This document shows, one piece after another, positions 23,886-38,965 of a DNA stretch of 64,000 nt. Source of the stretch: Acidimicrobiales bacterium (lineage in GTDB: Bacteria > Actinomycetota > Acidimicrobiia > Acidimicrobiales > Aldehydirespiratoraceae); NCBI GenBank assembly GCA_040219515.1, contig JAVJSI010000012.1, positions 124,001 to 188,000 on the forward strand, read 5' to 3'. The translations under genes and the position numbers were made by a program. Position 1 is the stretch's first letter; every line of letters begins with the position of its first letter. The notes below the pieces were generated by a model that saw nothing but the letters and a program-made list of their open reading frames with translations, made no database searches and was not told the DNA's origin.

Positions 23886-24710
23886 GTGGGCGAGACCAAT
23901 TGGTGGGAGGACCCGGTGGTGGGTAATCCCACGCCGACCGATGGGGCCGACGACCCCCCGCCGGAGGATCCCCCCGAAGCCGCTCCGAAGGACGCTGCGC
24001 ACACCGTTGCCCCGGGGCTCCTCCCCCCTCCGGTGCCGGCCGGCCCGCCGCCCGCGGTCGATGCGGGTCCGCCGCCGTCGCCCGTCGTCCCTGCGACGTC
24101 GGGTGGTGCACCACCGGCCCCGCAGGTCTCGTCGTCCGGTGGTTCGACGGGCGTGCTGCGCATCGTCGTGGGTGTGCTCGTCGTGGTCGTCCTGGTCGGG
24201 GCGTTCATCGTGCTCGCCAGCGATGATGCAGGGAGCCCGGCGTCGACCGACCTCGAGGAACTCGCGGCCGGTTTCGACCGCATCGGTGACGAGCTGGGTG
24301 TGGCCGAGCTGACCGGTGAGGAGCGACCGTCGCCGGGCGATCTCGGACTCGATGATCGCTTCACCGAACCGCGGACCTGGCGTACCGCCGACGGCACCCT
24401 GGTGGTTGCCTATGCGCGATCCGGCGATGACGACGATCGGGTCCGTATCGAACAGTCGGGTGCCATTGCCGGCGACCAGGTCGCCGCCGCCGGCGACGGC
24501 GCAAGTGTCGTCGCCGACGAACTGATCGAGACCTCGCCCCCCATCCGTCTCACCGAAGTCGAGACACCGGGGACGCCGTCGATCCGTTCGGCGACGGGGT
24601 ACGCGGCCACCGGTGCCGTCGTCGTGGTCGGCGCGATCGATGATGCCGACGGGCGGGTCGACCTGCCCGGCCTGGTCGCTGGCGTGATCGAGGCGATCGA
24701 CGCGACCTGA
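23886..24710 (+). CDS. Single-pass membrane protein with Pro-rich cytoplasmic region
   Basis: 274 residues, function unknown. A Pro/Asp-rich N-terminal half (about 1-85) includes ETNWWEDPVV, a tryptophan motif also seen at the N-terminus of other actinobacterial membrane proteins. One transmembrane helix (IVVGVLVVVVLVGAFIVLA) and an acidic extracytoplasmic domain of about 165 residues (LDDRFTEPRTWRTADGTLVV, SGYAATGAVVVVG-type strands) follow. GTG 23886 is preferred for its promoter spacing. It diverges from the HtrA-like protease gene and converges on the FHA gene with a 1-bp gap. Confidence 0.75.
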   Translation: MGETNWWEDPVVGNPTPTDGADDPPPEDPPEAAPKDAAHTVAPGLLPPPVPAGPPPAVDAGPPPSPVVPATSGGAPPAPQVSSSGGSTGVLRIVVGVLVVVVLVGAFIVLASDDAGSPASTDLEELAAGFDRIGDELGVAELTGEERPSPGDLGLDDRFTEPRTWRTADGTLVVAYARSGDDDDRVRIEQSGAIAGDQVAAAGDGASVVADELIETSPPIRLTEVETPGTPSIRSATGYAATGAVVVVGAIDDADGRVDLPGLVAGVIEAIDAT

Positions 24711-24711
24711 G

Positions 24712-25722
24712 TCAGCGGATGTCGAACCGGGCCAGTCGCAGCTCGGTGTTGCCGACCCTGATGTAGGCCCCATCGGTGAGTTCGTGGTCCTCTCCTTCGC
24801 CGACGGGGATCCACGGGGCTCCGGAACCGGATCGCACGAAGGTGCCCAGGCGCGATCCGAGGTCGCTCACCGACAGGCGCCAGTCCTCGACGCGGATGAG
24901 TGCGTGCCGACGGGAGATGACGGCGGCCGGGTCGGGGATCGCCACCGGGATGGCCGAACCGTCGATCACCCGCGGGTCCTCCTCAGGGGCTCGACCGATG
25001 ACCGCGCTGCGGGTGAGGACGTGTTGGGCGGACCCCAGCGCGAGCGAGGCGAACGGAAGTCGGGGCCCGCTGGTGAGTATCCGGCTGATGTTCTCGAGCG
25101 AGAGCCCGTCGATGTGGCAGAAGCGGGCCACGGGGTTGACGAGATGACCGCGTGGACACAGCACGCCCTGCACGATGGGCAGCCCTTCCTCGGGCGGCGC
25201 GTCGGACGGCGACGCGATCGTGATCGGCATCGGATCCCGTTCCTTCCGGGCCGGCTCGGCCAGGTCGATGCTGGTCGGTCGGTCGTCCAGCTCGGCCCAC
25301 CACGGACGGTCCGATGGCGTTGCGGCGGCCCCGACCTCGAGACCGGCCGCAGCCCAAACCCCCGGCGCGGCGGCAGTCGGGTCACCGCTCGCGCCGATGG
25401 TGTGGTGTCGGTCGAGGGGGAGCGGAACGGTGGGTGTGTCGGTCGAGGGACCCCCGGTCGAGACGACCTGCAGACCGTCGTAGCGGTGGATCACGGGACC
25501 GTCGTCGCCGGCGAGGATGACCCCACGAGGGCCATCGAGCCCGCGCATCACGGTGTCGGCGTCGCCGGGGCCGACCGGTGCGTCCACGAGCTCGAGCAGC
25601 TGACGCATGTAGCCGTCGGGAATCGCGTCCGGCCCGGCCAGGAACACCACGCCGTGATGGCCGACGACGGCGATGCCGCGTCCGGGTACGAGGCGGATCT
25701 GGTGGAGATCGAGTTCGGTCAT
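24712..25722 (-). CDS. FHA-domain protein
   Basis: 336 residues. A C-terminal forkhead-associated domain (about 240-330) has the phosphothreonine-binding pattern: IGRAPEEDP, ISRRHALIRVEDWRLSVSDLGSRLGTFV and ELTDGAYIRVGNTELRLARF. The N-terminal 90 residues (VGHHGVVFLAGPDAIPDGYMRQLLEL) form a separate beta-rich domain resembling the phosphatase-like sensor part of related FHA proteins. A central zinc-knuckle-like segment (VLCPRGHLVNPVARFCHIDG) is present. ATG 25722 overlaps the kinase stop (TGATG), so the two are translationally coupled. It is the probable phospho-reader of that kinase. Confidence 0.88.
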   Translation of the reverse strand: MTELDLHQIRLVPGRGIAVVGHHGVVFLAGPDAIPDGYMRQLLELVDAPVGPGDADTVMRGLDGPRGVILAGDDGPVIHRYDGLQVVSTGGPSTDTPTVPLPLDRHHTIGASGDPTAAAPGVWAAAGLEVGAAATPSDRPWWAELDDRPTSIDLAEPARKERDPMPITIASPSDAPPEEGLPIVQGVLCPRGHLVNPVARFCHIDGLSLENISRILTSGPRLPFASLALGSAQHVLTRSAVIGRAPEEDPRVIDGSAIPVAIPDPAAVISRRHALIRVEDWRLSVSDLGSRLGTFVRSGSGAPWIPVGEGEDHELTDGAYIRVGNTELRLARFDIR

Positions 25723-26510
25723 CACGTCAGCTCCTCGGCTGTCGAGTCGAGCGCATCGGCGAGCGATGCAGCGGTCGGATGGCGCGACGCGGGATCGTCG
25801 GCCACGCAGCGTTCGATGATCGCACGGACCTCGCCGGGGAGCGCCGGGTCGATCACCGGCGGATGGTTGACGACATGACGAAGACGGTCGAGCACGCCGG
25901 TCGAGGCGAGCGGCGGCCGCAGACTCGCCGTCGACAGCACCGCGTGAAGGGTGAGTCCCAGTGACCAGACATCAGAGGCCCGGGAGGCGGCGCCACCCAT
26001 CGCGACCTCGGGGGCCACGAAGTCCGGTGTGCCCCGGGGGCCATAGGCCGACGCATCGCCGCCGGGCAACACCTGGGCCAACCCGAGGTCCATGAGACGA
26101 CCGCGGTGACCGTCGCGTGCGATGGTCGCGGGCCGGATGTCTCGATGGGCGACCCCGAGGCCGTGGAGCGCGTCGGCGCCTCGCGCCGCGTCGGCCACGA
26201 TCCGCAGCGTCGTGGCGGTGTCGAACGTTCCATCGGCAAGCGTGCCGTCGTAGCGACGCATCGCGTAGTAGAGGACGCCGTCGGAGTATCCGGCGTCGAC
26301 GATCTCGGCCAAGCCGGGGTCGTCGAGCTGCGCGTAGAGCCTGATCTCGTTCGACAGGCGCCGGAACTCGTAGTCGCTCGCCGACCGATCGAGGATCTTG
26401 ACGACGAGTTCGTCACCGGCGCCCGAGTCGGACGTGGCGGTGTAGAGCGTGCCGTAGTTCGCAGGGCCCAGCTCGGCAACGATGGTGTAGCCGGCGATTC
26501 GCGTGGTCAT
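25722..26510 (-). CDS. Soluble Ser/Thr protein kinase, divergent active site
   Basis: A 262-residue kinase domain without transmembrane segment. Visible motifs: a glycine loop AELGPANYGTLYTA, the ATP-binding Lys in LVVKIL, HRDIRPATI for the catalytic loop and MDLGLAQVL in place of DFG, then GTPDFVAPEVAMGG and DVWSLGLTLHAVL. Catalytic Asp and Lys remain, but the Mg-binding Asn of HRDxKPxN is Thr and DFG is DLG, so activity may be weak. It overlaps the permease gene (ATGA, 4 nt) and the FHA gene (TGATG), giving a writer/reader pair in the left arm of the island. Confidence 0.9.
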   Translation of the reverse strand: MTTRIAGYTIVAELGPANYGTLYTATSDSGAGDELVVKILDRSASDYEFRRLSNEIRLYAQLDDPGLAEIVDAGYSDGVLYYAMRRYDGTLADGTFDTATTLRIVADAARGADALHGLGVAHRDIRPATIARDGHRGRLMDLGLAQVLPGGDASAYGPRGTPDFVAPEVAMGGAASRASDVWSLGLTLHAVLSTASLRPPLASTGVLDRLRHVVNHPPVIDPALPGEVRAIIERCVADDPASRHPTAASLADALDSTAEELT

Positions 26511-27778
26511 TTCTGGTCGCCCTCGGTGGGGTTCGTCGGAGTCTTGCGTTTGAGCGCTTCGGCCAGTGAGTCGTCGACATCGATGCGATCACCTCCGACC
26601 ACGTCGACGGGGCCGTCGGTGAGTGAGGCCCGGCGCTTGCGAGCCATCGCCAGCAATGCGGTCACGAGGAGCACGCCGAGCGCACCGGACACGGCGAGCA
26701 CCGCGTCGCTACGGAGTTCTTCGAGGAAGATGATCGTGGAGAGGACTTCGAGCGAGGCCAGGGCCACGACCAGTCGAACGAGATGACGGTCCCGCATACG
26801 CGACGCGAGCCAGGCGCCGAGCGGCGCGCCCCACGCCACGACGGGCACGGCGGCCAACCACAGACCGAACAGATCGAACCTCGTTGCCTCGAGCAGATCC
26901 CCTTGATCGGCGAAGACCGTCTTACCGTCGACGCTGCGGACGGCGTCGCCGCCGAGCTCGGTCACCGACGAGCCGTCGAGGGTGGTTGCCAGCTGGCCGT
27001 CGTACAAACCGAGCACGAGCAGGCCGACAATCGAGACCGCGGCCATCGCCATGACGCTGGTCGGTACGGCCACCTGGGGGCTGACGCCGAGCACCACGGC
27101 GACCAGTACGTAGAGGACCACATCGGTGCCGGAACCGGTCAGCGACGAGATCACCCCACCGACGAACAACGCGGTGACCAGCAGGATCCTGACTCGCATC
27201 GTGGAGGCGAGCGAGAACCGACGTTCGATCAAGGGCGCCCGGTATTCGAGCCACAAGGCGGCGGCCATCGACGCGATGAGGACTGTGAAGAGGACCTTGA
27301 CCCACGGACCGGGAACCCGGCTCGGCCAGTAGGGCAGGTCGGGGTCGCCGAGCACGTAGAGGCCGAAGAGAAAGCCGATCACGGCGGCCGGGATCCCCCA
27401 CATGAGGGCCCGTCGTTCGACCGGCTTGCTTCGGGCGGCGATCGCCAGCGACGCCGTACCCATACCGATGGTCTGGATCGACAGGGAGAAGGTGCGCGCC
27501 ACTTCGGCCGGGATCTCGAGGCCCTTCGTGAACACGGGGAAGGCCACCGCGCCGCCGCCCTGGGGTGTCGATCCGGCGACGAACGAACCGAAGATCATCG
27601 TGACGGACGCGATCAGGTTGTCGCCGACCCGATCGATGTGGCCGGCGGCAAGCACGTAGACCAACCATCCGAGTGTGACGGTCACGGAGATGGCCCATGC
27701 CCGGCGATTCCCCCGTCGGGCGCGCTGGTCGCGATCTGCGGCCGCGGTGTCGACCGCACGATTCAGGGCGTCGTTCAA
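26507..27778 (-). CDS. Sulfite exporter TauE/SafE family permease
   Basis: About 423 residues with eight or more transmembrane helices. FVAGSTPQGGGAVAFPVFTKGL is the first conserved half and SSLTGSGTDVVLYVLVAVVLG the second half of the TauE/SafE inverted repeat. A long extracytoplasmic loop (LYDGQLATTLDGSSVTELGG to FADQGDLLEATRF) and a charged 60-residue cytoplasmic tail are additions to the family. It probably exports an organosulfur or other anion. TTG 27778 is chosen because TTGA overlaps the previous stop by 4 nt; no ATG occurs before the first helix. Coupling to a kinase and FHA protein suggests phospho-control of the tail (inference). Confidence 0.88.
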   Translation of the reverse strand: MNDALNRAVDTAAADRDQRARRGNRRAWAISVTVTLGWLVYVLAAGHIDRVGDNLIASVTMIFGSFVAGSTPQGGGAVAFPVFTKGLEIPAEVARTFSLSIQTIGMGTASLAIAARSKPVERRALMWGIPAAVIGFLFGLYVLGDPDLPYWPSRVPGPWVKVLFTVLIASMAAALWLEYRAPLIERRFSLASTMRVRILLVTALFVGGVISSLTGSGTDVVLYVLVAVVLGVSPQVAVPTSVMAMAAVSIVGLLVLGLYDGQLATTLDGSSVTELGGDAVRSVDGKTVFADQGDLLEATRFDLFGLWLAAVPVVAWGAPLGAWLASRMRDRHLVRLVVALASLEVLSTIIFLEELRSDAVLAVSGALGVLLVTALLAMARKRRASLTDGPVDVVGGDRIDVDDSLAEALKRKTPTNPTEGDQK

Positions 27779-28209
27779 ACGAACCGGCCTCCGCGGTAGC
27801 GCCAGCGCGGCGCGATGATCACGAGCGGCCCGTTGGCGACGGCCCAGACGAGAATCCACAGCGTCGAGAAGTGCAGGAGGAACGCATCGAGGGGAACGGG
27901 GTCGCCGAGGACCGAGGCATCGAGGAGGAGGAACACGACCAGTCCCTCGTTGAGCCCGGTGAGGAGCCCGAACAGCGTCGGCCAGTCCTTCTCCCATCGG
28001 ATCTGCTGCAGGCCGTGGTAGACGAGCTCCCAACCGAGGCCGACAACGAGCGCGACCACCACGGCCCGCACGCCGGCACCGACGGCGTCGCGGTAGCTCG
28101 CGTCGGCGATCGCAGCCACCGCGGGGCCGATCACGATGCTCCAAGTGAGGCCGAGTACCGAGAGCAGGACGACCCTGGTCTGGAGCCGGCCGAACAGGGT
28201 CGGGGTCAC
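27775..28209 (-). CDS. Small integral membrane protein, unknown
   Basis: 144 residues from GTG 28209, overlapping the previous stop as GTGA. Four predicted transmembrane helices: VVLLSVLGLTWSIVIGPAVA, AVVVALVVGLGWELVYHGL, LNEGLVVFLLLDASVLG and LWILVWAVANGPLVIIA. The motif WEKDWPTLFGLLTGLNEG lies on one face. No family is recognised. The 4-nt overlaps on both sides tie it to the FAD oxidoreductase and the permease, so it is probably a partner subunit. Confidence 0.75.
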   Translation of the reverse strand: MTPTLFGRLQTRVVLLSVLGLTWSIVIGPAVAAIADASYRDAVGAGVRAVVVALVVGLGWELVYHGLQQIRWEKDWPTLFGLLTGLNEGLVVFLLLDASVLGDPVPLDAFLLHFSTLWILVWAVANGPLVIIAPRWRYRGGRFV

Positions 28210-29741
28210 GGCGCCACCCCCCTCATCCAGCGAATCCATTGTCGGATCGAGGCGCGGGTGCCGAAGCGGGGAATCGAACCGATGCGAGCGAGCTCGTCGG
28301 CGATCTGCAGCGCGACGTATTGGAGGCCCAGGAACGAGTCGACCGGGGCGTAGGGCCCGCCCAGGGTGATCGATCCGGATGCGAACATGCGACCGGGCCC
28401 GGACGCCGTGCCGACGAGCTCGAAGCAGGGTGTCACGTCGAGGCGGCCTCCGGGATTCGTCGAGGCGCCGGTGTGGTCGAGGATGTCGGCCAGGATTCGG
28501 CTCTCGCGGATGTCGCCGAGCAGGCCGGTGGCGTCGATCACGTAGTCTGCCTCGAGCGACTGGGTGCCCCCGGTGCCGAGCGCGATGTCGAGGGCCAGAC
28601 CCGTTCCCGACGGGCGGACCTCGTCGACCTGGCCGACGAGTTGCTGGTACGCGCCGGTCGACTTGGCCCGCTCGATCTGACGCTGCCAGTCACGCCGTGG
28701 CGCGGTGTTCGTCCCGCCGATCACCTTGAGGTAGTCCTGGCGGGCCGTCGGGTCCATCTCGAGCAACGTGGTGCGCAGTTGCCCGCCCCACGACGCCTTC
28801 GGGTAGTTGAAGGCCTGGTAGGCGAACCCGTCGTGCCCCGGCCGGCGGAACAGGAAGTCCCCCTGCGGACCTTCGACATAGTTGCGGAAGAGGTGCAGGA
28901 CCTGGGTGTCGGCGCCGTGCAGTTCGCGGTCGTCGAGAAGGCGTTGGAGCACCCGCGAAGCGACGATGCCCGCACCTCGCACGATGACCCGGCCGGGTCG
29001 CTGGCGCAGGTCGGCGTAGATGTGGTCGTGGTTCTCGTAGGCGTTCACCACGTGTACGGGATCGTGGTGGGTCTCGCGGTATCGCTGGAGATCAGGGAGG
29101 AACCGCAGACCGGGATAGCCCACGGAGACGTGGACGTGGCTCGCCCGGAGCACGATGCGAGGGCCGTCCTCGAGCCGGCCCTCGGGGTTGACGACGACGA
29201 AGTACCCGCCGTCGGCGCGCCGACGGATGGCCCGGACCTGGCCGGGGAGACGCATGTCGTTCCACCCGATCCTGGCGCACTCACGTTCGACCGAGGCGTA
29301 GACCTGCCCACCCTGCGGGGTGAAGTAGTCGCTCAGGATCGGTTCGGTGAGCACTCTCCACAGCGGTTCCAGCTTCGAACCGAGGCCCTTTCCGTGCCGA
29401 GCCTCGCGAAACGCATAGCTGGGAAATCCCCAGACGTTGTCGATCACCGAACCCGCGTCGCTGCGCAGCCGCTCGTGGTCGGGGATCTGGGAGTTGCGGG
29501 CCAGGTAGGCGTAGGTGTCGAACGGGCGCTCCAGCGGGCTGACCACGGTGATCGAGGATGTCGGTACACCCGATGCCCGGAGGAGGTCGACCAGTGCGAG
29601 TGAGCCGAGTCCGCCGCCCACCGAGACGATGGGAGCGTCGACCATCGTCTGTCCGGCACCGGTCAACCAGGCATCGTGCCAGACGTCGATGTCGAACAGT
29701 TCGTCCAACCCGGCCGCGCCACTCGGGGGTTCATTCGCCAT
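28206..29741 (-). CDS. FAD/NAD(P)-binding oxidoreductase-like protein
   Basis: 511 residues from ATG 29741 (MANEPPSGAAG). The dinucleotide-binding loop is VSVGGGLGSLALVDLL (about 62-77). A second Rossmann-like loop VIVRGAGIVASRVLQRLL and the late motif DYVIDATGLLGDI are typical of flavin-dependent oxidoreductases. YAYLARNSQIPDHERLRS and RMFASGSITLGGPYAPVDSFLGLQY are strongly patterned but not assigned. It is first in the five-gene operon, with GGAG about 13 nt upstream and a GGGAACC-N16-CATC promoter. It may be a redox sensor or a modifier of a substrate handled by the permease (inference). Confidence 0.78.
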   Translation of the reverse strand: MANEPPSGAAGLDELFDIDVWHDAWLTGAGQTMVDAPIVSVGGGLGSLALVDLLRASGVPTSSITVVSPLERPFDTYAYLARNSQIPDHERLRSDAGSVIDNVWGFPSYAFREARHGKGLGSKLEPLWRVLTEPILSDYFTPQGGQVYASVERECARIGWNDMRLPGQVRAIRRRADGGYFVVVNPEGRLEDGPRIVLRASHVHVSVGYPGLRFLPDLQRYRETHHDPVHVVNAYENHDHIYADLRQRPGRVIVRGAGIVASRVLQRLLDDRELHGADTQVLHLFRNYVEGPQGDFLFRRPGHDGFAYQAFNYPKASWGGQLRTTLLEMDPTARQDYLKVIGGTNTAPRRDWQRQIERAKSTGAYQQLVGQVDEVRPSGTGLALDIALGTGGTQSLEADYVIDATGLLGDIRESRILADILDHTGASTNPGGRLDVTPCFELVGTASGPGRMFASGSITLGGPYAPVDSFLGLQYVALQIADELARIGSIPRFGTRASIRQWIRWMRGVAP

Positions 29742-29779
29742 CGATCTCTGTACTCCGTGGGTCTCATCTTGTGGAACGT

Positions 29780-29808
29780 ACGATGCCGCAAGTGTCGCGC
29801 CGGTTCCC
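29780..29808 (-). promoter_or_regulatory. ECF-type promoter element, left arm of the island
   Basis: Minus-strand GGGAACC (29808-29802), 16-nt spacer and CATCGT (29785-29780). It lies 39-67 bp before the ATG at 29741. Confidence 0.6.
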
Positions 29809-29857
29809 AATTCGTCGGCGTTATTGTCGCACGGGTTTGTCGGCGGGGCGATTTTGC

Positions 29858-29886
29858 GGGAACCTTTTTGCGTGGTCGCTCATCTC
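29858..29886 (+). promoter_or_regulatory. ECF-type promoter element, right arm of the island
   Basis: GGGAACC (29858-29864), 16-nt spacer and CATCTC (29881-29886), pointing away from the left-arm element 50 bp away. The leader to the ATG at 29965 is about 70 nt. Confidence 0.6.
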
Positions 29887-29964
29887 ACTCTCCATGAGAT
29901 GGTCGCGAGGCGAACGGAGCGGAGTGATGGGTGACGGGTTGAGCGGGCGCTCGGGGACTCTCCG

Positions 29965-30768
29965 ATGAAGCGCTCCCATTTTCTCATGGTGGTCGGCGTG
30001 CTCGTCGTGGGATTCGTCGGTTTCGGGGCCGTCATCGGCGGCTACGCCACGATCGACCTCCCTGGGGGTTCGGATGGAACCGATCTTCCCGACGGTTTCG
30101 ACGAGGCCGGCATCGACCGGGTCGAGGATGACGAGGACGACGACGACGGAGCATCGGTCTCCCTGCCGGACCTGCGGGACCTGACCGTGGCCGACGCCCG
30201 GCAGGCGTTGCGCGACCTCGGCCTCTCGGTCCAGGTGAGCGATCGCACGGTGGACGACGAGGACCTCGACGGTGTGGTCCTGTCGCAGGGCCCGGGGCCG
30301 GGCGTCGTGGTGGAGGCCGGTTCCGAGGTCGACCTCTCGGTCGGGACCTACGTGGCCCTCGAACCCGAACCGACCCCTGCGCCCACGCCGGCCCCGACCC
30401 CTGCGCCCACGCCGGCCCCGACGCCCGCGCCCACCCCGGCCCCGACTCCTGCACCCACGCCGGCCCCGACTCCTGCACCGACCCCGGCTCCTACACCCGC
30501 GCCGACGCCGGCTCCCACCGTCAACATCAGCGGGCCGGGGTCGCTGCCGCCCAACGGCTCGTCGTCCTACACGGCCAATGCCACGAACGCGACGCAAGCC
30601 GTGTGGTCGCAGAGCGGCGACTGTCGCATCTCCGGATCGGGCTTCACCGTGCAGGTGACCGCACCGCAGCCGTTCGCCGGGGTGACGGAGACCTGCACCC
30701 TGACAGTGACCGTTTCGGGTCCCGGCGGCAACGCGAGCGACTCGCACACCATCGCCGTGAGCGGCTGA
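29965..30768 (+). CDS. Free-standing PASTA-domain membrane protein
   Basis: 267 residues. An N-terminal transmembrane helix ([21 protein letters not shown]) places the rest outside. A PASTA domain (about 64-130; [21 protein letters not shown] and [24 protein letters not shown]) is followed by a linker of about a dozen PTPA units and a C-terminal Ig-like domain ([21 protein letters not shown], two cysteines). PASTA modules bind peptidoglycan fragments and are normally part of a PknB-type kinase; here the sensor is separate. It stands at the head of the right arm, behind a GGGAACC-type promoter. Confidence 0.88.
30371..30523. repeat. 12-bp repeats encoding a PTPA linker
   Basis: About a dozen copies of a CCGAC(C/G)CC(T/C)GC(G/A)CCC-type unit code for alternating Pro-Thr-Pro-Ala. 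Synonymous variation between copies suggests selection for the peptide. A rigid wall-spanning spacer is the likely role. Confidence 0.85.
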
Positions 30769-30785
30769 TGACCGCCGACGCGGCG

Positions 30786-31448
30786 TCAGTCGAGACCGAG
30801 GCTGCGGACCAACCGCTCACGGCCGCGGGCGATGCGGGACTTCACCGTCCCCGGCTCCACCCCGAGCCGCTCGGCGATCTCGTCGTAGGGCAGACCGTCG
30901 ATCTCTCGGAGCTGCACCGCCGACCGGTACGGCTCCTCGAGCCCGTCGATCGCCTCGGCGATGCGAACACGATCGATGAGCACCGAACTCATGCGCCGCA
31001 TCCCGGGATCGAGTTCGACCCCGAGGTCGGCGACCGGTTGGGCCCGGCGGCCCTCCCGGCGGATGAGCTGACGCGCCTCGTTGGAGGCCACGGTGTGGAG
31101 CCACGAGGTGAAACGGCTTCGCCCCTCGAAACGGCTCACCCCACGACTCACCGCCACGAGGGTGGCCTGGGCGGCCTCCTCCACCTGGTGGCGGTCGTGG
31201 AGCATCCCGCCGATGGTGGGAATCGCGAGCTCGAGCGAATCGATGAGCCCCAGGAGCGCGGCCATCGCCGTGCGATCGCCGCTGCCCGCAGCGCGTGCGA
31301 GCGGGCGCAGCGCCGTGTCGGCCAGCCCCCAGTCGCGTGCCACCTTCGCGCGGTCGAGCGCGAGCTCCAGTTCGGGCAGCGCCCGTCGGTCGCCGTCGAC
31401 GATCCGTACCGCGAGGTCGGCAAGCGTGGGTTCCTCCGGCGTCGCCAT
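30786..31448 (-). CDS. ECF-type RNA polymerase sigma factor
   Basis: 220 residues. An N-terminal extension of about 60 residues precedes region 2 (QVEEAAQATLVAVSRGVSRFEG, RFTSWLHTVASNEARQLIRR). Region 4 has SAVQLREIDGLPYDEIAERLGVEPGTVKSRIARGRERL with the recognition helix. No anti-sigma gene is adjacent. The start ATG 31448 is 7 nt after TAGGCT, so the message is probably leaderless. It is encoded inside the signalling island opposite to its neighbours and is the best local candidate to read the GGGAACC-N16-CATC elements (inference). Confidence 0.93.
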   Translation of the reverse strand: MATPEEPTLADLAVRIVDGDRRALPELELALDRAKVARDWGLADTALRPLARAAGSGDRTAMAALLGLIDSLELAIPTIGGMLHDRHQVEEAAQATLVAVSRGVSRFEGRSRFTSWLHTVASNEARQLIRREGRRAQPVADLGVELDPGMRRMSSVLIDRVRIAEAIDGLEEPYRSAVQLREIDGLPYDEIAERLGVEPGTVKSRIARGRERLVRSLGLD

Positions 31449-31455
31449 CAGGCCG

Positions 31456-31461
31456 AGCCTA
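31456..31461 (-). promoter_or_regulatory. -10 box TAGGCT of the sigma factor gene
   Basis: Minus-strand TAGGCT is 7 nt upstream of the ATG at 31448; no ribosome-binding site intervenes. Confidence 0.5.
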
Positions 31462-31510
31462 GATCGTCGCTGCCCGCCGGTTCGCTCCGAATGAGGGCGG
31501 GAGTCGAGCG

Positions 31511-31927
31511 ATGATCGTCGTTGTCGTGGTGGCGGTCGTGGTCATCGTCGTCCTTGTCGCCGCCGTGCTGGTCTTCCGTCGCGCCGACCCGGTGTTCTCG
31601 GACCCTGTGCTCGCGGAACCCCCACGCGCCGATCCCCCGCGCGCCGAACCCCCGCCTTCCGAACCGTCGGTCGGCGCCGCTCCGGAGCCGAGGCGGGACG
31701 CAGCACCGGCGCAGCGGTCGCCCGGACGTGGTGGCACCCGAAGGCCCCGGCAGTGTCCTCGGTGCGGTGCCCACGATCCGGTGCCGAGTGGGCCGACCGG
31801 TTTCGACTGCGCCCACTGCGGCGCCGGCTGGAATGTCGACGAAGGTGAATGGCCGGACGTGCATCTCGTACTCTGGCGCAGAACCAACGAGCAGGCGGCG
31901 TCGTCCGTCGAAACGAGAGATCAGTGA
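31511..31927 (+). CDS. Membrane-anchored zinc-ribbon protein
   Basis: 138 residues. An N-terminal hydrophobic helix of almost only Val/Ile (about 2-22) is followed by an Arg/Pro/Glu-rich linker and a C-terminal CPRCGAHDP...FDCAHCGAGWNV zinc ribbon. GGGAG 7 nt before the ATG is a good ribosome site. The stop overlaps the GTG of the vWA gene (GTGA). Zinc ribbons often accompany TerY-P kinases; here the module is on its own membrane anchor. Confidence 0.8.
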   Translation: MIVVVVVAVVVIVVLVAAVLVFRRADPVFSDPVLAEPPRADPPRAEPPPSEPSVGAAPEPRRDAAPAQRSPGRGGTRRPRQCPRCGAHDPVPSGPTGFDCAHCGAGWNVDEGEWPDVHLVLWRRTNEQAASSVETRDQ

Positions 31928-32715
31928 GCTACACCCAAGAGATCAGTCGCGTCACCCCCGGGTGCATCATGTTCCTGGTGGACCAGTCCGGTTCCATGGC
32001 CGAGCCGTTCGCGGGCGACGAGACGACCACGAAGATGGATGGCGTGGCCACGGCCGTGAACCGCATCCTGTTGGAACTCATCCTGAAGTCGGTGAAGGAC
32101 CACGACGAAGGACCGCGTCACTACTTCGACATCGGTCTGATCACCTACGGCGCCGAGGTCGGCTCGGCGTTCGGCGGATCGCTCGCCGGCCGCGACCTCG
32201 TGTCGATCGCGGAACTGACCGAGAATCCGCTCGAGCCGGAGCAGCCGATCTGGCTCGCACCGAAGGCCGAGGGCCGCACCCCGATGGGGGAGGCGATCAA
32301 TCAGGCCGGACGGATCCTGGCCGGTTGGGCCAACGAGCACCTCGACAGCTTCCCTCCCATCGTCATCAACATCTCCGACGGTGCGGCCACCGACGAGGCC
32401 GACGTGTGGGTTCAGCGCCTCACCTCGATCCACACCGAGGACGGCGCGCTGCTGTTCTTCAATCTCAATGTGGGTCGATTCCGCGACGAGCCGGTGATGT
32501 TCCCCTCCAGCGTCGACGAGGTACCGAACGAGTACGCCGCCCAGCTCTTCGAGTACTCGAGCCAGCTTCCGCCGGCGATGCTGCAGGAGGCGTCGCGTTC
32601 TCGGGCAACGCCGCTGGCCGCAGGAGCCCGCGGGTTCGGCTACAACGGCGATTTCCACGCGCTCACCGACTTCCTCGTGACCGGCACGCAGGTCAGCCTC
32701 GATCGAGCGACATGA
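31924..32715 (+). CDS. TerY-like von Willebrand factor A domain protein
   Basis: 263 residues from GTG 31924, which overlaps the previous stop. The MIDAS motif is intact: FLVDQSGSM (Asp20, Ser22, Ser24), then FDIGLITYGAEVGSAFGG, TPMGEAINQAGRIL (the Thr ligand) and IVINISDGAATDEAD. This is the cytoplasmic TerY-type vWA fold, which binds a divalent metal and a protein partner. It is followed by a PP2C phosphatase and a YegI-like kinase, the arrangement known as the TerY-P triad of stress-signalling systems. No TerD-type gene is present in the window. Confidence 0.92.
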   Translation: MSYTQEISRVTPGCIMFLVDQSGSMAEPFAGDETTTKMDGVATAVNRILLELILKSVKDHDEGPRHYFDIGLITYGAEVGSAFGGSLAGRDLVSIAELTENPLEPEQPIWLAPKAEGRTPMGEAINQAGRILAGWANEHLDSFPPIVINISDGAATDEADVWVQRLTSIHTEDGALLFFNLNVGRFRDEPVMFPSSVDEVPNEYAAQLFEYSSQLPPAMLQEASRSRATPLAAGARGFGYNGDFHALTDFLVTGTQVSLDRAT

Positions 32716-32725
32716 TCAGCGCGAC

Positions 32726-33490
32726 ATGACGAGCGTGCGGCTGGACCTCGCGTCGTTCGGGCAGGCGAAAGACGGCTATCGATCCCACGAGTGGGAGGAC
32801 AGTGCCGCCCACAGCTTTCGCTCCGGCCGCTTCGCCGTGGCCGACGGCGCCACCACTGCGTTTCGGGCCCGGGCCTGGAGCCACATCCTCACCGCCGGGT
32901 GGCTGAGCGACCCCTTCGCGATCGACGACGACGACGAATGGGTCGAGTGGTTGGCTCGCCGGGCCGCGATCTGGGATGCCGATCTCGACGGACGAGAGGA
33001 CGACGCGCCGTTCTATGTCGTGGCCGCCGCGAACCGCGGCAGCTTCGCCACGTTGCTCGGTGTCGAACTCGGCGTCGACGACGGCGAGTTGTGCTGGCGG
33101 GCCCTCGCCGTGGGCGACGCCTGCCTGTTCCATGTGCGCGAGGGCGCGTTGCTGCAGTCCTTTCCGGTCACCGATGCCGCCGAGTTCGGGAGTCACCCGG
33201 CACTCGTGCACTCGGGAACCACCACGGGCCCGGGCGCTGTCCGGGGGGTCGAACGGGCGCGGGGCAGCCTCATCGAGGGTGATCGAGTGCTCCTCGCGAC
33301 CGACGCGCTGGCCGAATGGGCGCTCCTCGCCGGGAGCACCGACCCGGGCGTGTGGGAGCGTCTCGGCACCATCGACGAAGAGGGATTCGGCCGTCTCATC
33401 GCCGAACTCCGGGCCGGCGATGCCCTGCGAAACGATGATGTGACGCTGCTGCGCTGTGGCGTCTCGATCAGTTCGGCGGTCCGGCGATGA
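32726..33490 (+). CDS. PP2C-like Ser/Thr protein phosphatase
   Basis: 254 residues of the PP2C_2 type. Metal-binding positions are recognisable: FAVADGATTAF, ALAVGDACLFHV, LLATDALAEWAL and the C-terminal RNDDVTLLRC. No membrane segment. It lies 10 bp after the vWA gene, and its stop overlaps the kinase start (ATGA). It is expected to remove the phosphates added by the next kinase. Confidence 0.92.
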   Translation: MTSVRLDLASFGQAKDGYRSHEWEDSAAHSFRSGRFAVADGATTAFRARAWSHILTAGWLSDPFAIDDDDEWVEWLARRAAIWDADLDGREDDAPFYVVAAANRGSFATLLGVELGVDDGELCWRALAVGDACLFHVREGALLQSFPVTDAAEFGSHPALVHSGTTTGPGAVRGVERARGSLIEGDRVLLATDALAEWALLAGSTDPGVWERLGTIDEEGFGRLIAELRAGDALRNDDVTLLRCGVSISSAVRR

Positions 33491-34743
33491 CCGACGAGGT
33501 GCGCTGGCCCGACGCAGGCGAGTACGCCCAGGCGGCGCGTTCCCCGACCGAGTTCCTGCTCGACGACGAGCTGCGCCAGGGCAAACTCCGCACCTCGCCG
33601 TTGGGCATTCCCCTTCCCGCGACCGGTCGGAACGCGGCGGTGTTCCGGCTGTTGCTCGACGAGGGGTCCGTGGCGGTGCGCTGCTTCACGCGTCAGCCTC
33701 GCGATGGTCGCCGTCGCTACGACGCGCTGCGGGCCTACGTCGAGCGCACAGCGATCCCTGCGTTCGCGGACGCGCGGTGGCTGCCCGATGCCATCGCGGT
33801 CGGCGCGCAGCGGTTTCCGATGATCCGGATGGAGTGGGTCGACGGTCTCAACCTCGACCGCTATGTCGAGGCGCACATCGAGGACCGCAACCGGCTCGCC
33901 GACCTCGCCGAATCATGGATCGAGCTCCTCCACGCGCTCGAGGCCTCCGACGTCGCCCACGGCGACCTTCAGCACGGCAACATCCTGGTCGAGGCCGACG
34001 GCGCCATCCGCCTCGTCGACCTCGACGGGATCTGGACGCCGGCGACGACCGATCTCGTGCCCAACGAGGTCGGTCATCGCAACTATCAGCATCCGCAGCG
34101 GATCACCGGCGGCTACTGGGGGCGTTCGGTCGATGCCTTCTCCGCGCTCGTCGTCGCGGTCAGCCTCGAAGCGCTCGCGCAGGAGCCGGGGCTGTGGTTC
34201 GAGCACAACGACGGCGCCAACAACCTCCTCCTCGCCGAGGCGGACTACATGGCGCCCGGCGACACCCCGGTGTGGGCCGACCTCGACGCGTTGGCCGATC
34301 CGGTGCCGTCTCTGGCCGCCCGCCTTCGAGACGCGTGTGCGGCCGACGTGGCTCGGCTGGCGAAGCCCACGGAGATGGTCCGGGTACACGGCATGCTCAC
34401 CACCCCTGCGCCGCCTGCCTTCATCACCGAGCGCATCGGGCCCGCAACCGGCGAGACACCCGTCGTGCCGGACTCGGCCCCGGCCCCGGCCCCGGCACCG
34501 GCACCGGCGACACCGGTGCCCGTGCCTCGCGACGACCGACCCGACCTCGACCCGGTCGGCGGAGAAGCGCCCCGGCCTCCCGAGCCGACGCGGCCTGATC
34601 CCGCACCGAGCCCCGGCGCCGGTTCGAGTGGGCTCTCGGCCGGCATCGTCTTCGTCCTGTTCGCCACGATCGTCGCGATCATCGTGGTGTTCGTCGGCGT
34701 GGCGACCCTCGGGCTGACCACACCGGTGGGATGGCTGGCGTGA
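33487..34743 (+). CDS. YegI/TerY-P-type protein kinase with C-terminal membrane anchor
   Basis: 418 residues. The kinase core carries VAVRCFTRQ (Arg65 at the usual Lys), MIRMEWVDGLNLDRYV, VAHGDLQHGNILV (catalytic Asp160, Asn165) and LVDLDGIWTP (Asp178) in place of DFG. GHRNYQHPQR follows. HGDLQHGN with LVDxDG is diagnostic of the TerY-P kinase branch. A Pro/Ala-rich linker (about 330-380) leads to one transmembrane helix (IVFVLFATIVAIIVVFVGVA). The 3' end overlaps the next kinase gene. Confidence 0.92.
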   Translation: MTDEVRWPDAGEYAQAARSPTEFLLDDELRQGKLRTSPLGIPLPATGRNAAVFRLLLDEGSVAVRCFTRQPRDGRRRYDALRAYVERTAIPAFADARWLPDAIAVGAQRFPMIRMEWVDGLNLDRYVEAHIEDRNRLADLAESWIELLHALEASDVAHGDLQHGNILVEADGAIRLVDLDGIWTPATTDLVPNEVGHRNYQHPQRITGGYWGRSVDAFSALVVAVSLEALAQEPGLWFEHNDGANNLLLAEADYMAPGDTPVWADLDALADPVPSLAARLRDACAADVARLAKPTEMVRVHGMLTTPAPPAFITERIGPATGETPVVPDSAPAPAPAPAPATPVPVPRDDRPDLDPVGGEAPRPPEPTRPDPAPSPGAGSSGLSAGIVFVLFATIVAIIVVFVGVATLGLTTPVGWLA

Positions 34744-36743
34744 CCGACACGTTCGACATCGCCACGTTCGGTGCCTACGAGACCAGGGAGTTTCTCGGAA
34801 TGGGGAGCTTCGCAGAGGTGTACCGCTGCTATCACGCCGATCTCGACACCGAGGTGGCGGTGAAGGTCCTGCACCGACACCTGTCTCGTCAGCCCGATGT
34901 GCGCGAGCGGTTCCTCCAGGAGGCCCGCATCCTCTGGCGAGCCGAGCACCCCAGGGTCATCCCGGTGCATCACGTCGACGTACTGCCCTCGGGACAGCCC
35001 TACTTCGTGATGCGGCTGGCCGAGTGCGGCAGCCTCGGATCGCAGATCGAGCGACGGATGGTCGAGTCCGGGGGACCGTTCGAGTTGCCGGCGGTCGTGG
35101 GGCTGGCCGGCGAACTCGCCGAGTGTCTCGATGCCGTCCGGGCCCGAGGGGTGGTCCATCGCGACCTCAAACCGGAGAACGTGTTGGTGCGCCGGGTTCG
35201 AACCCCCGACCCCGACCGCGTCGCTCGCTGGGGTCTGCCCGCCGATGAGCGGCTCACCCTGGCCGACTTCGGACTCGCGAAGGTGTTGGCCGAGGGCACG
35301 AGCATGTTGTCGCAGTTGGGCGGGACCCCCCACTACATGGCCCCCGAGCAGATGTCGCTCACGGCTCGGCTCGACTGGCGGGCCGATCTGTTCGCCGTGG
35401 GAGTGATGACGTTCGAGCTGGCGGTGGGCGAGGTGCCCTGGCCGGAGCGAACCGTGGAGAACGCACGGGACATCGATCTCGACCTCGTCGACGCTCACGA
35501 GCGCAGCGGGGGGACTGTGCCGATCGGCTTCGACGACGTGATCCGGCGAGCCGTGATGCACGACCCCGAGGATCGCTACGAGTCGCCGTCGGCGTTCGTG
35601 GACGCGCTGACCGAGCTCGTCGTCGATGATGCCGTCGACGACGACGAGCCCATGACGCACTCGATCATCGAGAGAATTCGGATCCTCGCCGACGGACTGG
35701 ACGATTCCGTGCGTCGCGGCGACCGGCCGGTCCGCACTCTCGTGGCCGACGCACTCGACCGGCCCCGACGCCTGGTGGTGGTCGGTGGAGAGCGAACGAC
35801 GCCCGACGGGCTCACCCTGCGGATGCTCGGACGACGGGTTGAGCCGGGCCGAGGATCGCTGCTCGGCCATCGGGTCACGAGGATCCGCCAGGGGGACGAG
35901 CTGCGGCTGCTGGCCCGCACCCTCGCCGGCGACGAGGTGCTCGGCCACGTGGACCATGACGACAGCGGGCGACTGCGCCTGGAGCTGGCGGTGTCGCCAT
36001 GGTCGGTCGACACCCTCGAGCTCGAGCTGCCGGGTGACCATTTCGGCGGGGTCGAACTCGTCGACGTGCCCTGGTCGGTCGTGCGGGCCGAGGCGGGTGG
36101 CGCCGCGGCGTTCATCCGCGAGGCGGATCTGGTCGTGCTCGGACTGCCCATGTCGACGGCGGTCGCGGCCGCCAACCTCGACACGCTGCTCGGCCTCCTC
36201 CTGGAGTCGGTCGTCGGTCCGGTCGGCGTGGTCGGAGTCCAGGCCGCTGCCTCCTTCGAACAGATGCCGTTGCGCCTGCCGGGCACGCTCGAGGTCCTGT
36301 CGTCCGACGACGCCGCCGAACTGCGGGCGTTGACCGATGACGTCCTCGGCGGCGAGCGGGGGGTCTCGCTGGCGGCCAGCCGGGCGCTGGCCCTGCTGGC
36401 CCCCGAAGCCGAACGCTTCGACGACGAGCTCGACGCGATACGCCGCGACGCCCCCGAGCTCGACCGATTGATCGCCGCCCGATCCGTGGTGGTGCAGCGC
36501 TCGGTCACCGTCGACGAGCGCGACGAGCTGGTGCATCTGCTGGGTCGCCGGGCGCCCCAGACCCGGCTCGGGCTGGCGCCCGACGCGGACCCGGCGACCG
36601 TTCGCAGGGTCGCCGCCGAGCGTCGCCGACGTTGGGAGTGGGCGCGCTCGCGTGCGACCTCGGGCGGTGAGCGGGCCCGGATCCTCGATGCTGCGCTCGG
36701 CGCTCTCGGCGGGCTGATCGAACTTTCCGAAGGAGCGAACTGA
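34740..36743 (+). CDS. Ser/Thr kinase fused to a degenerate dynamin-like GTPase domain
   Basis: 667 residues from GTG 34740 (GTGA overlap; ATG 34731 is possible). Residues 12-295 are a complete kinase: GMGSFAEVY, Lys42, HRDLKPENV (140-148), DFG (176-178) and APEQ. Residues 328-667 resemble an actinobacterial dynamin-like GTPase: LDRPRRLVVVGG opens the G1 strand and GHRVTRIRQGDELRLLART matches the switch region. VELVDVPW (438-445) stands where DTPG is expected. The P-loop GxxxxGKS is replaced by GGERTTPDG, so nucleotide binding is probably lost. The tail (LLGRRAPQTRLGL, ARILDAALGALGGL) fits the helical stalk. No membrane helix is seen. The dynamin call is my reading of patterns, not a search. 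Confidence 0.88.
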   Translation: MTDTFDIATFGAYETREFLGMGSFAEVYRCYHADLDTEVAVKVLHRHLSRQPDVRERFLQEARILWRAEHPRVIPVHHVDVLPSGQPYFVMRLAECGSLGSQIERRMVESGGPFELPAVVGLAGELAECLDAVRARGVVHRDLKPENVLVRRVRTPDPDRVARWGLPADERLTLADFGLAKVLAEGTSMLSQLGGTPHYMAPEQMSLTARLDWRADLFAVGVMTFELAVGEVPWPERTVENARDIDLDLVDAHERSGGTVPIGFDDVIRRAVMHDPEDRYESPSAFVDALTELVVDDAVDDDEPMTHSIIERIRILADGLDDSVRRGDRPVRTLVADALDRPRRLVVVGGERTTPDGLTLRMLGRRVEPGRGSLLGHRVTRIRQGDELRLLARTLAGDEVLGHVDHDDSGRLRLELAVSPWSVDTLELELPGDHFGGVELVDVPWSVVRAEAGGAAAFIREADLVVLGLPMSTAVAAANLDTLLGLLLESVVGPVGVVGVQAAASFEQMPLRLPGTLEVLSSDDAAELRALTDDVLGGERGVSLAASRALALLAPEAERFDDELDAIRRDAPELDRLIAARSVVVQRSVTVDERDELVHLLGRRAPQTRLGLAPDADPATVRRVAAERRRRWEWARSRATSGGERARILDAALGALGGLIELSEGAN

Positions 36744-38965
36744 TGGCAGGCGACACATCCCTTCTCGTGGTGGTGGGCCGACGCACGCTTCACGGCGCGG
36801 TCCTCACCGGGGACGGGCCTCTCGCGGTCGCGGACCGCGAGGCATTCGACGAGATCGCGGCGCTGCGCCGTGGCGATCTGGGTCCGCTCCGCCGCTGGAT
36901 CGCGCAGACGGCGCGCGACGCCGGCTCGACGCACCCGAGCATCGACCGCATCGTCCTCGTCGCCGGCCCGTGGGCCCGACCGCCGCTCGTCGCCCTGGTC
37001 GGTGAACGAGTCGACGGTGTCGAGGTCACCGAGATACTCGACGACGGGCTCGCCTCGCTGGCCGGGGCCGCAGACCTCGTCGAGGACCGCGAGCGGTTCG
37101 TCCTCCTCGACACGGATCGTCGCCTCCTGCTGCGGGTCGCAACTGACGAGGGCATGGTCATCGAAGAACGCGTCGAGATCGCGGGCTCGGCATCCGAGGC
37201 CGAGGTCGCCGCAGCAGCCCACGTCGTCGAGCACTTCGACCCCGAGCGCGACGGGCCGACCGTGGTGGTGGTCGCCGACGCCGAGCACGACGTCGGGTCG
37301 TTGACGACCGCCCTCACGGCCGGAGGCTGGGTGATCGTCGCCGCGTCGACCGACCGGCTGACCGAGGGTGCGGCGTCGATGTTGACCGGCTTCTCGATCG
37401 CCGACCGTTCCGGTGGTCAGTCCCAGGTTCTGGGCCCCAACGAGTGGGAGTACGACACGGCGACACTCTCACCGATCGGTGCCCCTGACGTCCGTGGCGA
37501 TGTTCCGACTCTCGACCCAGCCGAATCGACCGAGGCCTCCGACCTCCTCGATCGGCCGACGACGCTCGCCGGAGAGGAGATCATCGCCGACCGGCCGACC
37601 GAGGAGGCTGTCGACCGGCCGACCGAGGAACGTGATCGGCCGACCGAGGAGGCTGTCGACCGGCCGACCGAGGAACGTGATCGGCCCACGGTGGAGAAGC
37701 GCTCCGAACTGCCGCCTCCGGTTGCTTCGCCCACGGGTGCGGCGGGGCCGCGCACCTCGAGCGATGTCGCGGCCGACCGCGTGGCGGCGGCGACGGAGGG
37801 CGGACCCGAGATTCCGGCGCTGGTCGCAGGGGCGAGCATCGGGGCCATCACCCTGGCGGGCGTGGCCGCGCTCGTGATCCTCGGGGGCCGTGAAGAGGTC
37901 CTGCCGGCCGCCGAATGCGACGCCGCCTTCGCGGCGACGATCGATGCCGACGCCGTGGTCGCGCTTCCCTCGGCCGGGCCGGACGTGACGGAGCGGTGGC
38001 AGGTCGATCTGGGTGGGCCCTCTGCCGTGGCGCCCGCCATCGTCGGCGGCATCGTGGTCGGTGTCGACGTTGGCAGCGGCGACACCCCCTCCGTCGTGCG
38101 GGCCTTCGACGCACGCAGCGGTGAACAGGTCTGGTCGCGCATGCTCAGCGGTCGTGTGTTCACTGCACCGGTGGTCCAGACGGGATCCCCCGATCTGGTG
38201 TGGATCACCGACGACTCCGGCCGTCTCACTGCGTTCGACGCATCCGGCACCGAACTGGGCGGATGCTCGATCCCGACCGCAGTGCGGTCCCTGGCCGTCG
38301 TCTCGACCGATGCGGGCCCCGCGTTGGCCGTCGTCGGCACCGAGGGCGGCGTCGTTCGCGGCCTCGCCTCGGGGCGGGAACTGTGGTCGGTGCAAACCGG
38401 GGACGCCGTCCGTTCCGTGATCTCGACCCCGGCGGGAATCGCCGCGGTGACCGACGGGGGCGAGCTGCTGATCCTCGACCCGGACAATGGCGCGATCCGG
38501 GTCCGCACCGGACTTGGTGGGTCGGCCTCGTCGCCCCTGCTCGTGCTGGGTGACGACCTGGTGTTCGCCACCGCCGATGGAGAGGTGGTCAGGGTGACGA
38601 CCGGCGGCGAGGAGGTGTGGCGCACCACGCTCGATCGCGAGGTCCGGGCCCCGCTGGCCACCGTCGACGGCGACGTCTTCGTGCCCTCCGTCGACGGTTC
38701 GCTCGTGCGGGTCGACGGTGATGACGGCACGGTCGTGGACGAATTCGATCTCGATGCCGCCGTCGACGGTGGTGTCGCGGCCCTCGACGGCGGAGTGGCG
38801 ACCGGCGACGATCTCGGACGTCTGGTGATCCGCGACCTGAGGACGGACGAGCCGTTGGCGATCGTCGAGTTGAACGGCGCGGTCAACGGGGGTCTCGGGG
38901 TCGGCGACGATCTGATCGCCGTGGTCGACTCGGGTGGGATCCTACGGGTGCTCGAGGTGCGCTGA
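36743..38965 (+). CDS. Membrane protein: actin/Hsp70-like N-terminus plus PQQ-type beta-propeller
   Basis: 740 residues; AAGGAG lies 8 nt before the ATG, which overlaps the previous stop (TGATG). Residues 1-220 resemble a reduced actin/Hsp70-type ATPase: a first strand LLVVVGRRTLHGAVL and the late segment IDRIVLVAGPWARPPLVALVGERV with GLASLAGAADLV, where phosphate loops are eroded. An acidic linker with DRPTEEAV/DRPTEER repeats (about 286-315) leads to one transmembrane helix (about 357-380). About 350 extracytoplasmic residues of PQQ-like propeller blades follow (FDARSGEQVWSRML, GREGG-like turns, GLASGRELWSVQTGDAV, VTTGGEEVWRTTLD). Last gene of the right arm; probably its envelope sensor. 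Confidence 0.82.
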   Translation: MAGDTSLLVVVGRRTLHGAVLTGDGPLAVADREAFDEIAALRRGDLGPLRRWIAQTARDAGSTHPSIDRIVLVAGPWARPPLVALVGERVDGVEVTEILDDGLASLAGAADLVEDRERFVLLDTDRRLLLRVATDEGMVIEERVEIAGSASEAEVAAAAHVVEHFDPERDGPTVVVVADAEHDVGSLTTALTAGGWVIVAASTDRLTEGAASMLTGFSIADRSGGQSQVLGPNEWEYDTATLSPIGAPDVRGDVPTLDPAESTEASDLLDRPTTLAGEEIIADRPTEEAVDRPTEERDRPTEEAVDRPTEERDRPTVEKRSELPPPVASPTGAAGPRTSSDVAADRVAAATEGGPEIPALVAGASIGAITLAGVAALVILGGREEVLPAAECDAAFAATIDADAVVALPSAGPDVTERWQVDLGGPSAVAPAIVGGIVVGVDVGSGDTPSVVRAFDARSGEQVWSRMLSGRVFTAPVVQTGSPDLVWITDDSGRLTAFDASGTELGGCSIPTAVRSLAVVSTDAGPALAVVGTEGGVVRGLASGRELWSVQTGDAVRSVISTPAGIAAVTDGGELLILDPDNGAIRVRTGLGGSASSPLLVLGDDLVFATADGEVVRVTTGGEEVWRTTLDREVRAPLATVDGDVFVPSVDGSLVRVDGDDGTVVDEFDLDAAVDGGVAALDGGVATGDDLGRLVIRDLRTDEPLAIVELNGAVNGGLGVGDDLIAVVDSGGILRVLEVR
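37597..37688. repeat. 45-bp repeat encoding DRPTEE units
   Basis: Two copies of a 45-bp unit (15 codons, DRPTEEAV plus DRPTEER) are nearly identical, within the cytoplasmic linker of the propeller protein. Confidence 0.75.

Follow-up and report, generated by a model that had tools for sequence, protein, structure and literature searches.

A TerY-P operon and an apparently undescribed FHA-kinase operon arranged head-to-head in an Acidimicrobiales genome

The window analysed here is a 64,000-nucleotide stretch of an Acidimicrobiales genome (Aldehydirespiratoraceae; assembly GCA_040219515.1, contig JAVJSI010000012.1, positions 124,001 to 188,000), which carries a cluster of signalling genes at positions 24712-38965. 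This cluster very probably represents two independent, translationally coupled operons, placed head-to-head within a segment of about 22 kb that close relatives lack. The right arm contains a TerY-P triad, made up of a TerY-like vWA protein, a PP2C phosphatase and a serine/threonine kinase (STK), together with a zinc-ribbon protein, a second kinase and a beta-propeller protein. The left arm encodes a flavoprotein-like (FAD-like, for flavin adenine dinucleotide) protein, a protein with four transmembrane segments (4-TM), a TauE/SafE-family permease, a further kinase and an FHA protein. The genes of each arm are coupled to one another, each arm is conserved on its own, and the two are unlinked in other genomes.

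The genes were checked by open reading frames, guanine-plus-cytosine (GC) content by codon position and profile searches. They number 13, of which 11 belong to operons, five on the minus strand in the left arm and six on the plus strand in the right arm; the arms are separated by 1.8 kb, and two single genes, encoding a PASTA protein (plus strand) and an ECF-type sigma factor (minus strand), stand between them. A preliminary description had listed 12 genes, 11 of them in two operons of overlapping genes. Most of that inventory is borne out by the profile searches, but the 4-TM gene (27775-28209) had been omitted and the PASTA gene lies outside the right operon. The overlaps are present at all four left-arm junctions and at four of the five right-arm junctions, the exception being a 10-bp gap between TerY and PP2C.

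Separate conservation of the two arms

The region had previously been interpreted as one two-armed island. A single TerY protein, used as the query in a first scan of genome contigs, found no match; a TerY alignment scanned against 84,980 species genomes retrieved 80 loci from many phyla, around which vWA, PP2C and triad kinase genes were recognised in 80, 76 and 69 cases, respectively. Searches with tblastn around these 80 loci detected no homologues of the window FAD-like, TauE, 4-TM, FHA, PASTA or propeller proteins, and the ECF factor once. A profile survey covered 97 TerY-PP2C loci, including 29 actinobacterial and 68 other ones. None has a left-arm FAD-like, 4-TM or TauE gene nearby, PASTA is found in 0/97 TerY operons and ECF in 1/97, so that a joint system is not supported. 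The neighbourhood comparison suggested in the preliminary description has thus come out against its own proposal of a single island.

Relatives of the left arm were obtained by searching the FAD-like protein against 296 genomes of the phylum, which gave eight strong matches besides the window genome; a Nonomuraea record and two more genomes contribute three further loci, bringing the set to 11. The FAD-like homologues in these loci are 40-57% identical, and a 4-TM gene directly follows in all 11. The order FAD-like, 4-TM, STK, FHA is kept in eight (L140, L141, L142, L143, L144, L145, L146 and L182), with the FHA gene of L142 and L146 cut by the contig end and its N-terminal part recognised by position and start similarity only. 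A TauE gene stands between the 4-TM and kinase genes in three of the 11, L140, L145 and L182, which hold all five genes; identity over the aligned stretch is 54-55% in L140 and L182 and 47% in L145. The kinase orthologues, in the same operon position, are 34-44% identical, and the FHA protein, which closes the operon, aligns with its homologues from L140, L141, L143, L144 and L145 and is also present in L182. The 4-nt overlaps of the left-arm genes are seen in other genomes too. Neither TerY nor the PASTA/ECF pair occurs in any of the 11 loci.

The right arm and its relation to TerY-P

The right arm (31511-38965, plus strand) opens with a one-TM protein carrying a C-terminal zinc ribbon (QCPRCG..FDCAHCG..W....WPDV; 31511-31927), whose stop is overlapped by the GTG start of TerY at 31924. 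The TerY-like vWA protein (31924-32715; PADLOC TerY, E 8.1e-55, 184 bits) has an intact metal-ion-dependent adhesion site (MIDAS), its residues being identified by alignment and motif check as DQSGS, the T in GRTPM and the D in ISDG. It is followed by the TerY-P-type PP2C phosphatase (32726-33490; PADLOC PP2C, E 5.7e-31, 106 bits) and, overlapping this gene by 4 nt, by the TerY-P kinase (33487-34743; PADLOC STK_OB, E 1.5e-59, 200 bits). The operon ends with a second Ser/Thr kinase, which has a canonical active site and an orphan C-terminal domain (34731-36743; Pfam Pkinase, E 3.2e-36), and with a protein combining an orphan N-terminal domain, a TM segment at residue 361 and a PQQ/BamB-type beta-propeller (36743-38965; Pfam PQQ_2, E 3e-17). 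The earlier assignment of the core to the TerY-P triad holds, all three PADLOC TerY-P models being matched, as does the reported absence of TerD-type genes, since TerD (PF02342) has no match in the whole genome, which is 99.98% complete.

The TerY-P phosphorylation triad is reportedly the subject of Anantharaman et al. 2012 and Gao et al. 2020. Like it, the right arm encodes an intact-MIDAS vWA protein, a PP2C and a TerY-P kinase in genes that keep the canonical order and overlap or lie close together. It departs from that triad in several respects: the kinase is not fused to an OB fold or a zinc ribbon but ends in a TM tail, TerY is preceded by a gene of its own for the TM zinc-ribbon protein, the triad is followed by a second kinase and a TM propeller protein, and TerD is lacking, the last point also setting the triad apart from the tellurite (Ter) gene cluster with its linked TerD-family genes. 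The STK_OB match covers only positions 3-285 of the 562 in the profile; the rest of the protein is a proline-rich linker and a TM segment at 387. TM segments are widespread in TerY-P kinases (13/13 actinobacterial loci and 47/61 others), and the window kinase is therefore read as a TerY-P variant distinct from the form fused to an OB fold or zinc ribbon.

The additional genes of the right arm have counterparts in Actinobacteria. Among the 29 actinobacterial TerY operons of the survey, five contain a TM zinc-ribbon gene, three an FHA protein, three a propeller and five at least two kinases; in the 68 non-actinobacterial operons the corresponding counts are 0, 0, 0 and 2. The TM zinc-ribbon gene is considered a recurrent TerY-operon part, since a TM protein of the window type, with the motif QCPRCG...C..CG..W, is encoded beside TerY in five further actinobacterial loci (L053, L109, L114, L119 and L176), which come from a Pseudonocardiales metagenome-assembled genome (MAG), Pseudonocardia eucalypti, Saccharothrix, Parafrankia soli and G931. 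The preliminary description had regarded the extra modules as a combination without a known counterpart. PASTA and ECF do not recur, but the TM zinc-ribbon, second kinase, beta-propeller and FHA modules do so in actinobacterial TerY-P operons. L172, L173 and L175 have one or two proteins that join kinase and propeller ahead of TerY-PP2C-STK, an arrangement of which the separate second kinase and TM propeller protein of the window seem to be a split form. These three loci, from one actinobacterial family, are apparent five-gene operons with an extended TerY-P architecture (L172, 6717-14647; L173, 7406-14817; L175, 4571-12308), in which a kinase-PQQ propeller protein and a propeller plus degenerate kinase-like protein come before TerY-PP2C-STK.

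In a TerY tree, the window falls into a divergent actinobacterial group (bootstrap 85; Shimodaira-Hasegawa-like approximate likelihood ratio test 96). The gene immediately upstream of TerY encodes a TM protein in 8/10 members of this group, the window not being counted, vs 12/83 elsewhere (Fisher p=4e-5; this value is only indicative, since the group was defined from the tree itself and related loci do not count as independent). TerY itself is patchily distributed: it was detected in 4/395 genomes of the class and 4/396 of the phylum, the window's own genome being counted in each, and in 0/6 congeners, and the sole other match among 51 same-family genomes is marginal (E 3.3e-4). No TerY was matched in phage records, and plasmid TerY is limited to two cyanobacterial triads.

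The orphan domains have few relatives: among 198 genomes, the C-terminal part of the second kinase gave one match (E 4e-4) and the N-terminal part of the propeller protein gave none. A dynamin-like fold of the former and an Hsp70/actin-like fold of the latter, both suspected by eye, found no Pfam support, and an AlphaFold2 prediction of the kinase C-terminus as a single sequence reached a predicted local distance difference test score (pLDDT) of only 37. Two neighbours of TerY-P operons elsewhere are also of note. In Parafrankia, a kinase-FHA-ABC transporter fusion of 1104 aa (L119:13069-16383) lies directly 3' of the zinc-ribbon TerY-P operon. In Nocardia camponoti, a caspase-domain protein (L118:6420-7976; Pfam C14, E 7.3e-9) is encoded near a TerY-P triad, hinting at a link to conflict systems.

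Several described systems share parts with the cluster. TerY-P triads, which have been proposed to be metal-sensing phosphorylation switches, counteract phages (PMC11090510, PMC7699616, PMC10889362). In the TerY-P attached to CoCoNuT Type II/III-A restriction systems (PMC11090510), the same triad serves as an accessory switch, but no tested flanking gene of the window matches a PADLOC restriction system. The actinobacterial kinase-PP2C-vWA theme of GAP1-N2 conflict systems (Kaur et al. 2020, PMC7159879) likewise places a kinase with a zinc ribbon or TM helices beside a PP2C and a stand-alone vWA protein; the right arm differs in carrying its zinc ribbon on a membrane protein of its own and in the propeller protein that comes afterwards. 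Ser/Thr kinases, PASTA and FHA domains are also shared with the PknB-type PASTA kinases and FhaA/FhaB modules of Actinobacteria, but the PASTA domain of the window is on a separate protein and not fused to a kinase; the NCBIfam PknB_PASTA_kin model reaches at best 142 bits against a cut-off of 450, and the FhaB model likewise stays far below its cut-off.

The left arm

The left arm (24712-29741, minus strand) is read from the FAD-like gene towards the FHA gene, and its four junctions are all 4-nt overlaps. The FAD-like protein (28206-29741; motifs GGGxGS, RGAGIVAS and IDATG), previously labelled an FAD oxidoreductase, does have the glycine-rich motifs, but no Pfam, NCBIfam or PDB profile backs the label. 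Its Rossmann-like motifs are conserved across 10 sequences, and the searches returned no Pfam support in 10 members, no NCBIfam family and no PDB relative with an E-value better than 0.5; a single-sequence structure prediction reached a pLDDT of only 34. The 4-TM protein (27775-28209) shows the pattern of GC by codon position expected of a coding sequence and the motifs PT..GR.QT(R/K) and RWEKDWP, with no Pfam or NCBIfam match. Next comes the TauE/SafE-family permease (Pfam TauE, E 5.7e-18; eight TM segments by hydropathy), an optional member whose gene starts with TTG and spans 26507-27778, the longer reading frame 26507-28144 being wrongly started. The last two genes encode a small soluble Ser/Thr kinase of 262 aa (25722-26510; Pfam Pkinase, E 6.9e-23) and a protein of 337 aa in which an N-terminal domain and a zinc ribbon (CPRGH...FCHIDG) are joined to an FHA domain (24712-25725; Pfam FHA, E 1.3e-8).

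The catalytic Asp of the kinase varies with the presence of the permease. In the window, the Asp of the HRD motif is kept and the catalytic-loop Asn is lost (HRDIRPAT). The HRD Asp is present in 4/4 loci with TauE, window included, and in 0/5 without TauE (p=0.008), where the position is occupied by E, H or N. Several left-arm kinases may consequently be pseudokinases, which suggests that some members of the module signal through one. Two more distant FAD-like homologues (25-30% identity) have FHA genes nearby, one of them with a kinase as well; the gene that follows each of them encodes a membrane protein, which begins with the same PT..R.QTR motif but goes unrecognised by the 4-TM profile. 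The open-access literature searched yielded nothing relevant on this gene combination and, as its two lead families have no Pfam or NCBIfam model, the operon is apparently undescribed.

Two neighbouring genes adjoin the left arm. The extra segment includes an HtrA-like trypsin-PDZ gene (22696-23769), and a gene at 23886-24710, convergent with the FHA gene, encodes a one-TM protein starting with ETNWWEDP. A six-TM FHA protein overlapping TerY in an Acidimicrobiales MAG (L047:275-1378) has SNWWNDD near its start, a possible shared N-terminal motif.

Genomic setting and competing readings

The segment holding both arms extends beyond them. In the congener G417, the homologue of the window gene 17521-19152 lies directly beside yaaA (window 40985-41761), so that about 22 kb, from about 19.2 to 40.9 kb, are absent there; the boundaries are defined solely by this comparison. 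The synteny of the flanks with congeners speaks against contamination. Both arms are absent from 50 same-family genomes, as judged for the left arm by the FAD-like protein, and this absence from all family relatives favours a gain in the window lineage over a loss in G417. GC content is 69% in the segment and 68% in the flanks. A search for the signature of a mobile element gave nothing: no tRNA was found in the window, and no integrase was recognised among the segment genes. Two minus-strand genes, 17521-19152 and 39029-40801, border the missing part; the latter encodes a trypsin-SLH protein, and the G417 homologue of the former aligns also with its SLH part. Recombination between the two may have brought about the gain or loss.

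Neither of the single genes between the arms belongs to a conserved operon. The PASTA gene (29965-30768, plus strand; Pfam PASTA, E 9.5e-14) encodes a secreted, membrane-anchored protein in which a single PASTA domain is combined with a (TPAP)n linker, and is convergent with the ECF gene (30786-31448, minus strand; NCBIfam sigma70-ECF, E 5.1e-22, over the cut-off; Pfam Sigma70_r4_2, E 8.6e-18), which in turn diverges from the right arm. A scan for sigma-70 promoters was empty, and terminator predictions were below chance. Two GGAAC-type boxes between the FAD-like and PASTA genes match loosely in their second halves and were not used as evidence.

Several observations weigh against two independent operons and the roles proposed for them. 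The shared phospho-signalling, the short spacing and the joint absence from close relatives leave cross-talk conceivable; FHA proteins accompany TerY in L047, L098 and L119; the flavoprotein assignment stays at the level of motifs; support for the TerY group is moderate and its branches are long; and the genes of relatives were called by a simple in-house script, with TM segments taken from hydropathy, in uneven samples. The proximity, common chemistry and shared segment, and the FHA modules of the three actinobacterial operons, are what an integrated wall-damage or redox circuit would lead one to expect, in which both arms, PASTA and ECF act together and the left-arm FHA protein reads phospho-sites of the right-arm kinases. 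Such a circuit is improbable given the 97 TerY loci without the left-arm genes, the left-arm loci without TerY and the near-complete lack of PASTA and ECF in TerY operons. More improbable still is that signalling genes of a high-GC genome came together by chance and form no conserved unit: the orphan domains and the non-recurrent PASTA and ECF genes agree with this and may indeed be accidental, but the order of both operons is conserved elsewhere and the left-arm overlaps recur, which refutes this explanation for the two cores.

A stronger contender, although its chances are clearly below even, is that the right arm is a plain anti-phage TerY-P defence system to which the second kinase and propeller protein are hitch-hikers, the left arm being unrelated. 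This fits two separate operons and differs from our interpretation over the role of the right arm. The three PADLOC matches, the activity of stand-alone TerY-P against T7-like phages (PMC7699616), its protection of Pseudomonas PAO1 (PMC10889362) and the patchy distribution of TerY all speak for it. However, the kinase has a TM tail instead of the OB-fold half of the defence profile, the tested flanking genes include no other complete defence system, and the repeated presence of propeller kinases and TM zinc-ribbon genes in TerY operons shows them to be more than hitch-hikers.

Returning to two independent operons, we infer the biochemical steps and the signals of both arms as follows. The right arm would be an actinobacterial membrane-anchored variant of TerY-P, in which TerY, as the metal-binding vWA protein, forms an on/off unit with PP2C and the tail-anchored kinase. 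The one-TM zinc-ribbon protein may hold or gate this switch at the membrane, and the second kinase and TM propeller protein would probably feed an envelope or extracellular signal into it. The left arm would be a separate, unnamed module in which a kinase, weak or in part degenerate, and an FHA reader with a zinc ribbon are linked to the flavoprotein-like protein and the 4-TM protein paired with it, a TauE-family exporter joining them in some loci. Its most likely role would be to report redox or sulphur/anion-transport state through phospho-Thr recognition. No interaction between the arms would be required, and the particular signal assigned to each is tentative, at clearly less than even odds. 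That the left arm is an undescribed Actinomycetota module, with two model-less families, a kinase and an FHA reader, and the right arm a new membrane-anchored TerY-P subtype, is a proposal we consider about evenly balanced.

A known defence or stress switch, TerY-P, is thereby told apart from a second conserved operon that is nameless in the libraries and literature searched. The left arm offers a small, testable FHA-kinase pathway with an enzyme and a membrane partner outside described families, and the right arm illustrates a way in which actinobacterial TerY-P can be connected with the membrane and with propeller-bearing kinases, a point relevant to what TerY-P senses.

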